Source: Actinoplanes sp. NBC_00393 | Lineage (GTDB): Bacteria; Actinomycetota; Actinomycetes; Mycobacteriales; Micromonosporaceae | Reading direction: 5' to 3' | Assembly (NCBI RefSeq): GCF_036053395.1 | Contig: NZ_CP107942.1 | Span: 8,636,001 to 8,700,000, forward strand | DNA length: 64,000 nt | The notes under the pieces: generated by a model | The model's database searches: none | What the model saw: the letters and a program-made list of their open reading frames with translations, nothing else | Told to the model about the DNA's origin: nothing | Program-made: the position numbers and the translations under genes | Part shown: positions 39,409 through 44,219 of the stretch, in pieces | How the letters are laid out: every line of letters begins with the position of its first letter | Numbering within the stretch: position 1 is the first letter of the stretch

Positions 39409-41019
39409 GTGCCCCGAGGCGACGGCCGGTTGACCGACGATCTCGACCCCCAGGAACGCGGCCCCCAGGATGCCTGTGGCGTCTTCGGCGTCTGGGCCCC
39501 CGAGGAAGAGGTTTCCAAACTCACCTACTTCGGGCTTTACGCTCTCCAGCACCGCGGCCAGGAAGCCGCCGGCATCGCGGTGAGTGACGGCTCGGGAGTC
39601 GTCGTCTACAAGGACATCGGCCTGGTCTCCCAGGTCTTCGACGAGCCGACGCTGGCCAGCCTCCGCGGTCACCTCGCGATCGGCCACGCCCGCTACTCCA
39701 CCACCGGCGGGTCGAACTGGGAGAACGCGCAGCCCACGATCCGGGCCACGCCGGCCGGGACGACCATCGCGCTGGCTCACAACGGCAACCTGGTCAACAC
39801 CGCCGAGCTCGCCAAGGAGGTTGCGGATCGCGGCCTCGAGGTGGGCGACGCCACATCCGACACCGCTCTGGTCACCACTCTTCTCGCCAGCCGCCCCGAC
39901 CTTTCGGTCGAGGCCGCGGCGCTGGAGCTGCTGCCGACTCTGCGCGGCGCCTTCAGCTTCGTCTTCATGGACGAGAACACTCTGTACGCGGCACGCGACC
40001 CGCAGGGCGTACGTCCTCTGGTCCTCGGCCGGATGGAGCGCGGCTGGGTCGTCGCCAGCGAGACCGCCGCGCTCGACATCACCGGCGCCAGCTTCGTCCG
40101 TGAGGTCGAGCCGGGCGAGATCATCGCGATCGACGAGCACGGCCTGCGGTCCAGCCGCTTCGCCGCGCCCGAGCCCAAGGGCTGCCTGTTCGAGTATGTG
40201 TATCTGGCCCGGCCGGACACCACGATCGCGGGCCGCAACATCTACTCCGCGCGCGTCGAGGTCGGCCGCAAGCTGGCCCACGAGCACCCGGTCGAGGCCG
40301 ACCTGGTGATCGGCGTGCCCGAGTCGGGGATCCCGGCCGCGATCGGCTACGCCGAGGCCTCCGGTATTCCGTACAGCGCGGGCTTCATGAAGAACGCGTA
40401 TGTCGGTCGCACCTTCATCCAGCCCTCGCAGACGATCCGCCAGCTCGGCATCCGGCTGAAGCTGAACCCGTTGCGCGAGGTCGTGCGCGGCAAGCGGATC
40501 GTGGTGATCGACGACTCGATCGTGCGGGGCAACACGCAGCGGGCCCAGATCCGGATGCTGCGGGAGGCCGGAGCGCTCGAGATCCACGTCCGGATCTCCT
40601 CGCCGCCGGTGAAGTGGCCCTGTTTCTACGGCATCGACTTCGCCACGCGCGCCGAGCTGATCGCCAACGGCCTGGAGATCGACGGCATCCGCCGCTCGAT
40701 CGGCGCCGACAGCCTGGGCTATGTTTCGCTGGACGGCCTGGTTCAGGCGACCGAGCAGCCGAAGACGCGTCTCTGCATGGCCTGCTTCGATGGGCAGTAC
40801 CCGATCGAGCTCCCGGCCGGGGATCTCATCGGTAAGCACGTGCTGGAGGGTGTCGGGCGGCGGGCCAGCATGCCGGGCGCCTCACCGGAGGCGACCGACG
40901 CGGCCGTCGCCGAGCTCGAGTCCGACTACGAGGCCCGTGAGTACTCGGAGGAAGACCGCCCGGTGTCGACTCCGCTGGTCGGCAGCCCCGGTGGCGCCGG
41001 CGCGCTGCACCGCCCGTGA
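39409..41019 (+). CDS. purF: Amidophosphoribosyltransferase
   Basis: A 536-residue enzyme catalysing the committed first step of purine synthesis, PRPP plus glutamine to phosphoribosylamine. The Ntn-type glutaminase begins at Cys23 in DACGVFGVW after a 22-residue propeptide that is probably removed. ALQHRGQEAAGIAV and GHARYSTTGGSNWEN belong to it. The PRPP loop is RIVVIDDSIVRGNT (about residue 365). Cysteines suited to a 4Fe-4S cluster occur at CLFEYV, CFYGID and CMACFDG. GTG at 39409 follows GAGGGAG at 8 nt. The long acidic tail (about 50 residues) is typical of actinomycetes. purM follows after 34 nt. Confidence 0.97.
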   Translation: MPRGDGRLTDDLDPQERGPQDACGVFGVWAPEEEVSKLTYFGLYALQHRGQEAAGIAVSDGSGVVVYKDIGLVSQVFDEPTLASLRGHLAIGHARYSTTGGSNWENAQPTIRATPAGTTIALAHNGNLVNTAELAKEVADRGLEVGDATSDTALVTTLLASRPDLSVEAAALELLPTLRGAFSFVFMDENTLYAARDPQGVRPLVLGRMERGWVVASETAALDITGASFVREVEPGEIIAIDEHGLRSSRFAAPEPKGCLFEYVYLARPDTTIAGRNIYSARVEVGRKLAHEHPVEADLVIGVPESGIPAAIGYAEASGIPYSAGFMKNAYVGRTFIQPSQTIRQLGIRLKLNPLREVVRGKRIVVIDDSIVRGNTQRAQIRMLREAGALEIHVRISSPPVKWPCFYGIDFATRAELIANGLEIDGIRRSIGADSLGYVSLDGLVQATEQPKTRLCMACFDGQYPIELPAGDLIGKHVLEGVGRRASMPGASPEATDAAVAELESDYEAREYSEEDRPVSTPLVGSPGGAGALHRP

Positions 41020-41053
41020 CTTTCAGATACACAGAACCGCTAAGGGGAGAACC

Positions 41054-42205
41054 GTGACGCACGTGTCCGAGCGCAACAGTGCCGGATCGAACGGCGCCGA
41101 AGGCGCGGACCGCCAGCTGTGGACAGCGGGTGGCGGCCGCGGCACTCGTAAGCGCTCGGCGACGTACGCGGAAGCGGGTGTCTCGATCCACGCCGGTGAC
41201 CGTGCCGTCGAGCTGCTCAAGTCGAAGGTGAAGAAGACCACCCGGCCCGAGGTGATGGGCGACCTGGGCGGCTTCTCCGGCCTGTTCCGGTTGAACACGC
41301 AGAAGTACAAGAGCCCGATCCTGGCCTCGTCCACCGACGGTGTCGGCACCAAGCTGGTGATCGCGCAGCAGCTGGACATCCACGACACGATCGGCATCGA
41401 CCTGGTCGCCATGGTCGTCGACGACCTGGTGGCCTGCGGCGCCGAGCCGCTGTTCCTGCTCGACTACATCGCCTGCGGCGAGGTCGTCCCGGACAAGGTG
41501 GCCGAGATCGGCGCCGGCATCGCCGACGGCTGCCGCTACGCGGGTTGTGCCCTGCTCGGTGGCGAGACCGCCGAGCACCCCGGCGTGCTCCGCCCCGATG
41601 AGTACGACGTGTCGGCGACCGGTGTGGGCGTGGTCGAGGAGAGCGAGATCCTCGGCAAGGAGCGGGTCGAGGTCGGCGACGCGGTCATCGCGATGCGCTC
41701 GTCGGGTCTGCACTCCAACGGCTACTCCCTGGTCCGGCACGTGCTCCTCGGCGCCGGCCGGATGCGGCTGGACACCGTGGTCGACGACTTCGGCACCCAG
41801 CGGACCCTGGGTGAGGAGCTGCTCACCCCCACCAAGATCTACGCCAAGGACTGCCTGGGCCTGATCGAGGAGACCGACGTCCGGGCGTTCTCGCACGTCA
41901 CCGGCGGCGGCATCCCCGGCAACCTGGTGCGGATCCTGCCCGACCACGTGGACGCGGTCGTCGACCGGTCCACCTGGCGCCCGCAGCCGATCTTCGACCT
42001 CATCCAGGCGAAGGGCCGGATCGAGGACTCCGAGATGGAAGCCACGTTCAACATGGGCGTCGGCATGTTCGCGATCGTCTCCTCGGACGATGCGGATCGT
42101 GCGATGGCCTACCTGACCGGCCGCGGTATCGAGGCGTGGCAGGTCGGCGAGGTCCTGGAGGGCACCGGCGAGGTGCAGATGATGGGCTCCTACACCCGCG
42201 GCTGA
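41054..42205 (+). CDS. purM: AIR synthetase (phosphoribosylaminoimidazole synthase)
   Basis: A 383-residue ATP-dependent cyclase acting after PurL. After a roughly 35-residue variable head come SATYAEAGVSIHAGD, LASSTDGVGTKL (ATP and metal), DLVAMVVDDLVACGAEPLF, ALLGGETAEHPGV and SSGLHSNGYSLVR, all family signatures. GTG at 41054 is 4 nt from GGGGAG; GTG at 41063 is an alternative. It is co-directional with purF. A large imperfect hairpin lies 35 nt after the stop codon. Confidence 0.97.
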   Translation: MTHVSERNSAGSNGAEGADRQLWTAGGGRGTRKRSATYAEAGVSIHAGDRAVELLKSKVKKTTRPEVMGDLGGFSGLFRLNTQKYKSPILASSTDGVGTKLVIAQQLDIHDTIGIDLVAMVVDDLVACGAEPLFLLDYIACGEVVPDKVAEIGAGIADGCRYAGCALLGGETAEHPGVLRPDEYDVSATGVGVVEESEILGKERVEVGDAVIAMRSSGLHSNGYSLVRHVLLGAGRMRLDTVVDDFGTQRTLGEELLTPTKIYAKDCLGLIEETDVRAFSHVTGGGIPGNLVRILPDHVDAVVDRSTWRPQPIFDLIQAKGRIEDSEMEATFNMGVGMFAIVSSDDADRAMAYLTGRGIEAWQVGEVLEGTGEVQMMGSYTRG

Positions 42206-42326: not shown

Positions 42327-42371
42327 GCGGCTGGCGCCGCACGGTCCGACCGCGCGGCTGGCGCCGCACGG
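42327..42371. repeat. Two-copy 18-bp direct repeat upstream of the maturase gene
   Basis: GCGGCTGGCGCCGCACGG occurs at 42327-42344 and exactly again at 42354-42371 (27-bp period). Each copy can fold as GCGGC-TGGC-GCCGC. They lie 58-103 nt before the radical SAM start codon, where an operator or RNA structure could act. Confidence 0.7.
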
Positions 42372-42429: not shown

Positions 42430-43554
42430 ATGGCGGATGCGTGGAGTGGGATGCGGGGCATCTCGGCGATACCCAGCTACGTCGTCATGCAGCCCACCAC
42501 GCTGTGCAACCTCGCGTGTGACTACTGCTATCTCCCGTTCCGGCGGGAGAACCAGAAGATGCCGGTCGAGGTGGCGGCCGCTGTGGCGGACGGGGTTGCG
42601 GGCTTCGCGCGTACCGGAAGGTTTTCTGTGGTGTGGCACGGCGGTGAGCCGCTCGCCGCAGGTCTCTCCCACCTGGCCGCGCTCTTCGCGCCGTTCGGGG
42701 CGGGCATCGAGCACCACGTGCAGACGAACGCGACGCTGATCGACGACGCCTGGTGCGAGTTCTTCATCGAGCACGACGTGCGGGTCAGCGTGAGCGTGGA
42801 CGGGCCCCGGGAACGTAACGGCGACCGGGTGGACCGGGGCAACAAGCCGGCCTACGACCTGATCATGCGCGGCGTCGAAGCGCTACGCCGGCACAACATC
42901 CCCTTCTCCACGCTGTGCGTGGTCGGCGACCCGCAGCCGGGCGTCGCGACTGAGCTGTACGAGTACTTCCTCGACCTCGGCTGCGAAGTCCTCGGCATCA
43001 ACGTCGAGGAGCTGGAGGGCGTCAACACCCGGGCGAACCGCCACGATCCGGCAGCGGTGAGCGCCTTCTGGGCCGAGCTGGTGGGTGCTTGGCGCCGCAA
43101 CCCGACGATCCATCTGCGCGAGATCGAGTGGTCCCTGCGATACGCCTCCGCAGTCCTCGACGGCACCGCGGACGACCTGCTGCCCCGCCAGCTGGACCCG
43201 ATACCCACGGTCGCCTTCGACGGCTCGGTCGTCCTGCTCTCACCCGAGCTGGCCGGCTTCCGCGACCTCCGGTACGGCGACTTCAGCAGTGGGAACGTGC
43301 TGACCACCGCCCTGCCCGAGATCCTGGCCGGCGCCGAGGACACGGCCTGGATCGGCGAGTTCCTCCGCGGGATCGAGTCGTGCCGGCAGACCTGCCCCTA
43401 CTTCGGCTTCTGTGGCGGAGCGCACGCCGCAAACCGCTACTTCGAACACGGCCGGTTCGACGTCACCGAGACGGACCACTGCCGTAACAGCAAGATTCGC
43501 CTATTGGAGGGAGTGCTGGACCATGCCCGAGATCACGAAGCCACGGCTGTCTGA
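42430..43554 (+). CDS. amcB: Radical SAM/SPASM cyclophane-forming peptide maturase
   Basis: A 374-residue enzyme. The radical SAM core has the CxxxCxxC cluster site at C26, C30 and C33 (PTTLCNLACDYCYLPF), then WHGGEPLAAGLSHL and SVSVDGPRERN. The C-terminal SPASM region (CRQTCPYFGFCGGAHAANR and a final Cys in TDHCRNSK) would bind auxiliary Fe-S clusters. It overlaps the small precursor gene by 32 nt, as in ribosomal peptide (RiPP) cassettes. I recognise the pair as the AmcB/AmcA type, which joins aromatic rings to residues two positions later. The identification is from memory; a generic FxsB-like maturase is the alternative. ATG at 42430 follows GGGAG. Confidence 0.8.
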   Translation: MADAWSGMRGISAIPSYVVMQPTTLCNLACDYCYLPFRRENQKMPVEVAAAVADGVAGFARTGRFSVVWHGGEPLAAGLSHLAALFAPFGAGIEHHVQTNATLIDDAWCEFFIEHDVRVSVSVDGPRERNGDRVDRGNKPAYDLIMRGVEALRRHNIPFSTLCVVGDPQPGVATELYEYFLDLGCEVLGINVEELEGVNTRANRHDPAAVSAFWAELVGAWRRNPTIHLREIEWSLRYASAVLDGTADDLLPRQLDPIPTVAFDGSVVLLSPELAGFRDLRYGDFSSGNVLTTALPEILAGAEDTAWIGEFLRGIESCRQTCPYFGFCGGAHAANRYFEHGRFDVTETDHCRNSKIRLLEGVLDHARDHEATAV

Positions 43555-43750
43555 AGGCGTGGAGACGGATCCGGTGACGGCACGGGTGCACGGCGCTCGG
43601 GCCGGCCTGGCCGCGCTCATCGCGGAGGCGGAAGCCGCCAGGGTACGACGAGCCGAGGAAGCGCCGCAGGACGGCGGCTCGGCGGTCTGCGCCTGGAACC
43701 ACTTCGAAAACATCCCCACGTTCTACAACTGGAACAACCGGCCGCGCTGA
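43523..43750 (+). CDS. amcA: RiPP precursor peptide, multiple-cyclophane type
   Basis: A 75-residue peptide. Residues 1-54 form a probably helical leader (RAGLAALIAEAEAARVRRAEEA), and the C-terminal 20 residues are packed with aromatics and Asn: AWNHFENIPTF then YNWNNRPR. Candidate crosslinked triplets are W58-N-H60, F61-E-N63, F67-Y-N69 and W70-N-N72. ATG at 43523 lies inside the end of the maturase gene, with GGAGG 12 nt upstream; GTG at 43559 is an in-frame alternative. No protease or transporter gene follows, so maturation and export are unknown. A perfect hairpin ends the unit. Confidence 0.82.
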   Translation: MPEITKPRLSEGVETDPVTARVHGARAGLAALIAEAEAARVRRAEEAPQDGGSAVCAWNHFENIPTFYNWNNRPR

Positions 43751-43878: not shown

Positions 43879-44094
43879 TCAATGCCGCCTTGTCGGCGAC
43901 CAGGAATCCTGGTCGTCCTCAGCGTCATCCTCGTCATCGTCGACGAACTCATCGTTGTCGTCGTCGAAATGACCGTCGGATTGACGGGCACCCGCCAATT
44001 CGCGCTGCAAGGCGGTGAGGTCGGTGTTCGGGGAGTGATACTTCAACTCCCGGGCCACCTTCGTCTGCTTGGCCTTAGCACGGCCGCGCCCCAT
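43879..44094 (-). CDS. DUF3073 family protein
   Basis: A 71-residue protein. MGRGRAKAKQTKVARELKY is the strongly conserved basic N-terminus of DUF3073, followed by a tail that is almost all Asp/Glu (DDDNDEFVDDDEDDAEDD). The charge split suggests nucleic-acid or ribosome interaction, which is inference. The ATG at 44094 is chosen because the conserved sequence begins there; upstream codons are unrelated. It is usually found between purM and valine dehydrogenase in actinomycetes, as here. Confidence 0.88.
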   Translation of the reverse strand: MGRGRAKAKQTKVARELKYHSPNTDLTALQRELAGARQSDGHFDDDNDEFVDDDEDDAEDDQDSWSPTRRH

Positions 44095-44219
44095 GGCTCG
44101 ACCCCCTCGCACAGAATTCGGGGCAGCCCGAAGGCGGGCCCCGATGACGTCAGGCATCTCTCGTGGGTCTTACGGTACATGGACGACGCCGCGTTCGGCA
44201 CCTCGGGTTGCGTGTGACA

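Follow-up and report, generated by a model that had tools for sequence, protein, structure and literature searches.

A radical SAM gene that overlaps the gene for a short peptide with closely spaced aromatic residues raises the question of what the enzyme makes of the peptide and why the product is kept. The pair was examined here in a window of 64,000 nucleotides (the whole stretch of DNA analysed) from Actinoplanes sp. NBC_00393 and in related genomes. The best explanation as a whole, to which we give a probability of roughly 0.7, is that the enzyme, AmcB, forms cyclophanes on a fixed core of the peptide, AmcA, and that the product acts on a conserved target of the producer itself and is not an antimicrobial shaped by an arms race.

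The amcB-amcA pair

The genes and segments of the locus are as follows, with positions counted in the window.

40721..42205, + strand: purM, the upstream neighbour (open reading frame as listed, start provisional; PF00586/PF02769 on the 41006-42205 part)
42430..43554, + strand: amcB, radical SAM/SPASM peptide maturase of 374 aa (NF041718 and PF04055 matches, conserved Cys)
43506..43513, + strand: likely ribosome-binding site of amcA, GGAGGGAG, inside amcB and 9 nt before the ATG (read from the sequence)
43523..43750, + strand: amcA, precursor peptide of 75 aa (NF041722 match), overlapping amcB by 32 nt (43523-43554)
43583..43657, + strand: conserved leader segment, residues 21-45 (alignment of 81 AmcA)
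43682..43747, + strand: core AVCAWNHFENIPTFYNWNNRPR, residues 54-75 (identical in 77 of 81)
43879..44100, - strand: DUF3073, the downstream neighbour on the opposite strand (PF11273)

The initial annotation had described a 374-residue radical SAM/SPASM protein with C26, C30, C33 and a C-terminal Cys cluster, overlapping by 32 nt a 75-residue peptide with the units W58-N-H, F61-E-N, F67-Y-N and W70-N-N, and all of these lengths and positions proved exact. Its assignment of the two genes to AmcB/AmcA, for which it had proposed a search with the NCBIfam models, was borne out by scores above both cut-offs: 519.2 bits for AmcB against NF041718 (cut-off 425, E = 5e-156) and 113.3 bits for AmcA against NF041722, "AmcA_3a" (cut-off 65, E = 6e-33). 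These E-values, together with the fact that amcB is followed by an AmcA in all 80 loci considered (the best 80 of 111, see below), confirm that the pair is real and beyond chance. The interpretation built on it was supported in part, since the family, described as a "multiple cyclophane-containing RiPP" system (NF041718/NF041722), is already catalogued and the window pair is no different from it at the family level; what is unusual, and added by the present analysis, is a near-invariant core and a fixed site between purM and DUF3073. The result listings of a full-text literature search included no paper devoted to the AmcA/AmcB peptide system. He et al. 2022, cited in PMC11002830, is probably the primary paper on the AMC peptides.

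AmcB carries the motif C26-x3-C30-x2-C33 and the C-terminal cysteines C318, C322, C328 and C351, as expected of a radical SAM protein with a SPASM-type region, and the radical SAM domain (PF04055) was its sole match in the Pfam search. Among 119 aligned relatives, some of them identical, C318, C322 and C328 are kept in all and C351 and C109 in 118; C26, C30 and C33 are kept in 119 of 119 by construction, because sequences lacking CxxxCxxC in the chosen reading frame (L046, L104) were dropped, together with two that were cut (L162, L171). The four C-terminal cysteines presumably fit one auxiliary cluster, as in anSME. An AlphaFold2 model based on 29 sequences (mean pLDDT 88.9) has as its nearest solved folds ChlB and anSMEcpe (TM about 0.7, 20-22% identity), and ChlB was crystallised together with its precursor or leader. 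The next-best NCBIfam match of AmcB, and the closest characterised family, is GrrM/OscB (TIGR04261; 239.6 bits), which differs in that the score stays under its cut-off of 310; the anaerobic sulfatase maturase (TIGR03942; 112.1 bits, cut-off 349) and FxsB (TIGR04269; 89 bits, cut-off 370) also score below their cut-offs. In the host genome, a single AmcB and a single AmcA exceed the NCBIfam cut-offs. Four other radical SAM proteins of the same genome (L002-L005) give low scores with the AmcB model (85-97 bits) and are perhaps other peptide maturases.

For the window AmcA, which scores 40.7 bits against AmcA_3b (NF041723; cut-off 65), no domain match was found in a local copy of Pfam; a total of 1083 homologues was found, and among the matches listed (120 of 1083) the Pfam label is PF28164. 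In the leader, residues R21, L29, L32, E35, A36, A39, R40, R43 and E45 are kept in at least 96% of 81 AmcA sequences (the window and 80 loci), and the segment 21-45 is the probable recognition segment through which AmcB would bind its substrate.

The conserved core and the predicted rings

Of these 81 AmcA sequences, 77 share one and the same core (residues 54-75), and the remaining four differ by Y68F. The core is coded by 69 distinct DNA sequences that vary at synonymous sites, which argues that the constraint acts on the peptide. Mean pairwise identity is 99.6% for the core and 54% for the leader (3240 pairs), and 76% for AmcB (3160 pairs); residues 1-52 are on average 57% identical to those of the window, with gaps counted as mismatches. 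As the loci were picked by AmcB, the invariance is no selection effect on the core itself, within a sample in which close AmcBs only were retained.

Two further core types show that the peptide can change in other genera. Type B, WRPFEDAFPTFYQFTNRPR and relatives, was found in 11 loci (L116, L155, L159, L160, L161, L165, L166, L168, L169, L171 and L177) and corresponds to AmcA_3b, the two peptides tested scoring 104 and 101.7 bits. It resembles the window type, here type A, in locus, leader, aromatic-x-x units and an NRPR-like tail, and differs in having an extra F-P-T and no Cys56. Type C, RWTDVFTTQFTEFSNRPR, was found in three purM-linked loci (L163, L164, L167), and the one peptide tested reached 21.5 bits against a cut-off of 65 and was below the cut-offs of all AmcA models that it matched. 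The purM gene lies upstream in 12 of the 14 type-B and type-C loci; in the other two, L116 and L171, the available stretch ends within amcB, with DUF3073 on the downstream side, and four type-B loci (L155, L159, L160, L177) have bldC downstream instead of DUF3073. In an AmcB tree made by a quick method from 73 of 119 rows, with type A thinned, types B and C group in a single starred branch; some branches in other parts of the tree are long.

By hand alignment, all three types have in common [F/W]-x-[N/D], F-x-[N/Q/E] and [W/F]-x-N, followed in most by RP, and the middle and third residues of the three units vary in divergent cores of the same locus. The rings predicted for the window peptide are as follows.

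43703..43711, + strand: F61-E62-N63, predicted three-residue cyclophane (aromatic-x-N/D kept in types A, B and C)
43721..43729, + strand: F67-Y68-N69, predicted three-residue cyclophane (F-x-[N/Q/E] kept in types A, B and C)
43730..43738, + strand: W70-N71-N72, predicted three-residue cyclophane ([W/F]-x-N kept in types A, B and C)
43694..43702, + strand: W58-N59-H60, possible, weak fourth cyclophane (type A only)

The earlier expectation of three or four macrocycles thus appears sound for F61-N63, F67-N69 and W70-N72, as judged from conservation in the divergent cores, and weaker for W58-N-H, which is not kept in types B and C: the Trp is absent in four of the 11 type-B cores (L155, L159, L160, L177), the other seven have Pro or Ala at +2 of the Trp, and the hand alignment shows no comparable additional unit in type C. 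At the place of I64-P-T in type A, both other types have an additional F-P-T or F-T-T, so that ring numbers may vary from type to type. Since position 68 can be occupied by Y, F, W or T across core types, F67, not Y68, is the likely ring donor.

The chemistry itself is deduced from homology. OscB links C7 of Trp or C4 of Phe to the beta carbon of Asn at i+2, and Trp also to Asp (PMC11002830); as a homologue of GrrM/OscB, AmcB should likewise couple an aromatic ring to the beta carbon at i+2. In every aromatic-x-polar unit, radicals derived from SAM would serve to link the first residue, through its ring, to the beta carbon of residue three, and the product would contain three cyclophanes (F61-N63, F67-N69 and W70-N72), perhaps a fourth (W58-H60), with a loss of 2 Da for each. 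The natural series of types A, B and C indicates which rings the enzyme family may need.

Location and distribution of the pair

A genome scan with AmcB gave 111 confirmed loci, and the counts given here use the best 80 of the 111, the 31 weaker ones being left out. These 80 include loci of Actinoplanes, Micromonospora, Salinispora, Asanoa, Dactylosporangium and others, the five named genera being members of Micromonosporaceae. The overlap of amcB and amcA is 32 nt in 64 of the 80 loci under our start rule, DUF3073 follows on the opposite strand in all 80, and purF-purM lies upstream on the same strand in 76. In the other four (L078, L080, L081 and L085, of Catellatospora/Catelliglobosispora) purF-purM is inverted, as though the entire segment had been flipped, and a long open reading frame with a signal-like start is found between it and amcB. 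The gap between purM and amcB ranges from 18 to 393 bp (median 149; 74 loci, with the match start taken as the start of amcB), and that between amcA and DUF3073 has a median of about 142 bp (80 loci), five loci having 542-993 bp. No protease or transporter gene was found between purM and DUF3073 in the window. An exact 16-nt direct repeat, GGCTGGCGCCGCACGG, was seen by eye in the purM-amcB gap of the window, at 42329 and 42356 (42329-42371).

Outside the host's family, in 28 best-scoring loci from the 118 class genomes searched, purM adjoins DUF3073 in 24, on opposite strands in 23 of the 24, and no amc genes were found within reach. The purM-DUF3073 site thus seems to be an old arrangement of the class that predates amcBA, and this suggests that amcBA was inserted between the two genes in the family ancestor. 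DUF3073 is present in 116 of the 118 class genomes; a dependence of amc on DUF3073 is disfavoured, as the latter is present in all 19 AmcB-less family genomes tested (19 of 41).

Among 200 family genomes sampled evenly, 159 gave an AmcB match at E <= 1e-80; 138 of these 159, and no others, encode the exact core, counting both Y and F at position 68. Of the remaining 21 AmcB-bearing genomes, five have a type-A core lengthened by a single residue near the end (NNRPPR/NNRPSR), ten have type B (G401 and nine more), three type C and one (G433) a WDN-type precursor; one (G485) is cut by the contig end and one (G425) is without detectable AmcA. The 41 genomes without an AmcB match at this threshold, 22 of which belong to one genus (g148), indicate that AmcB is dispensable somewhere. 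A search for AmcA in 19 of these 41 found it absent in 18; in the exception (G435), AmcB is truncated by the contig end and the AmcA is of type B, with a score under the AmcA_3a cut-off. In G425 an AmcB of 59% identity (L170, 1444-2730) stands at the purM-DUF3073 locus, at which no recognisable AmcA was found, possibly representing a decayed amc pair. A mobile or viral origin was rejected: one scan of viral contigs with AmcA gave no relative, and the five plasmid matches to AmcB at E <= 1e-40 were all GrrM, with 31-32% identity. In a phylum sample, 0 of 396 were over the AmcA_3b cut-off, the sample being uninformative.

Role of the product and a second AmcB branch

RiPP cores often diversify quickly, and antimicrobial RiPPs usually do. 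A near-fixed 22-residue product over many genera, with little room for export or immunity genes and no plasmid or viral copies found, points to a conserved self target; the absence of an AmcB match from 41 of 200 family genomes argues against it. The rigid C-terminal peptide would then be a product of the host's family that has a fixed place on the chromosome and is probably passed on vertically, and the mature peptide would most likely act on a conserved self-encoded target in a signalling, regulatory or cofactor-like role. A fuller scenario, advanced tentatively and at slightly less than an even chance, is that of a housekeeping RiPP: amc entered the purM-DUF3073 interval a single time in the family ancestor, the core split into A versus B/C, and the mature type-A multicyclic peptide of 22 residues froze because, as a signal or cofactor-like ligand, it binds a single partner that is conserved and encoded by the producer. 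A near-unchanged multicyclic peptide at one locus beside a purine gene, in much of a family noted for its antibiotic producers, suggests a physiological role for cyclophane peptides, a question that is approachable in culturable species of the host's family.

The same chemistry could instead yield a secreted antimicrobial, a triceptide-like bacteriocin whose core is kept by a conserved target in competitors, and some radical-SAM peptides with related cross-links, such as darobactin and dynobactin, are antibiotics (PMC11002830). The short gaps on both sides of the pair leave little room for export, protease and immunity genes, the near-invariance of the core over many genera contrasts with the usual diversification of antimicrobial RiPPs, and the plasmid search gave no AmcB-like match; we consider this reading unlikely. 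Somewhat less likely still is a different AmcB chemistry on the type-A core, for instance a bond to Cys56 or fewer rings than predicted. Cys56, which has no role in the preferred model, is present in all 81 type-A sequences and missing from the type-B and type-C cores seen, and the four conserved C-terminal cysteines of AmcB, presumably for one auxiliary cluster, also count in favour of this reading; against it, the window AmcB is 61-68% identical to the AmcBs of these Cys56-less types, and the aromatic-x-polar units are what the core types have in common.

That the C-terminal conservation represents a DNA or RNA element, such as a regulator or terminator, is suggested by the core stopping shortly before the opposite-strand DUF3073; the 69 DNA versions among 81 sequences, with their synonymous-site variation, give just two peptide versions and render this reading highly improbable.

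More distant AmcBs, found in another family of the class (f19) and as second copies in the host's family, share 38-44% identity with the window AmcB. Precursors were readable in six loci of this second branch (L088, L089, L090, L093, L107, L178), all with FDN/WDN repeats, and the three tested match AmcA_1 (NF041721); in the remaining loci of the branch no precursor was identified, and none was found beside two AmcBs from other families (L094, L095). AmcA_1 resembles the window system in its AmcB-homologue partner and in the aromatic-x-N-x3-aromatic-x-N spacing, and differs in its repeated [F/W]DNRxxWDN units. The equal spacing of FDNRPTWDNW in AmcA_1 and FENIPTFYNW in the window supports one shared substrate logic. 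Pentapeptide-repeat proteins, a further difference from the window system, adjoin both second-branch members tested (L089, L098) and are possible functional partners of the second-branch AmcB.
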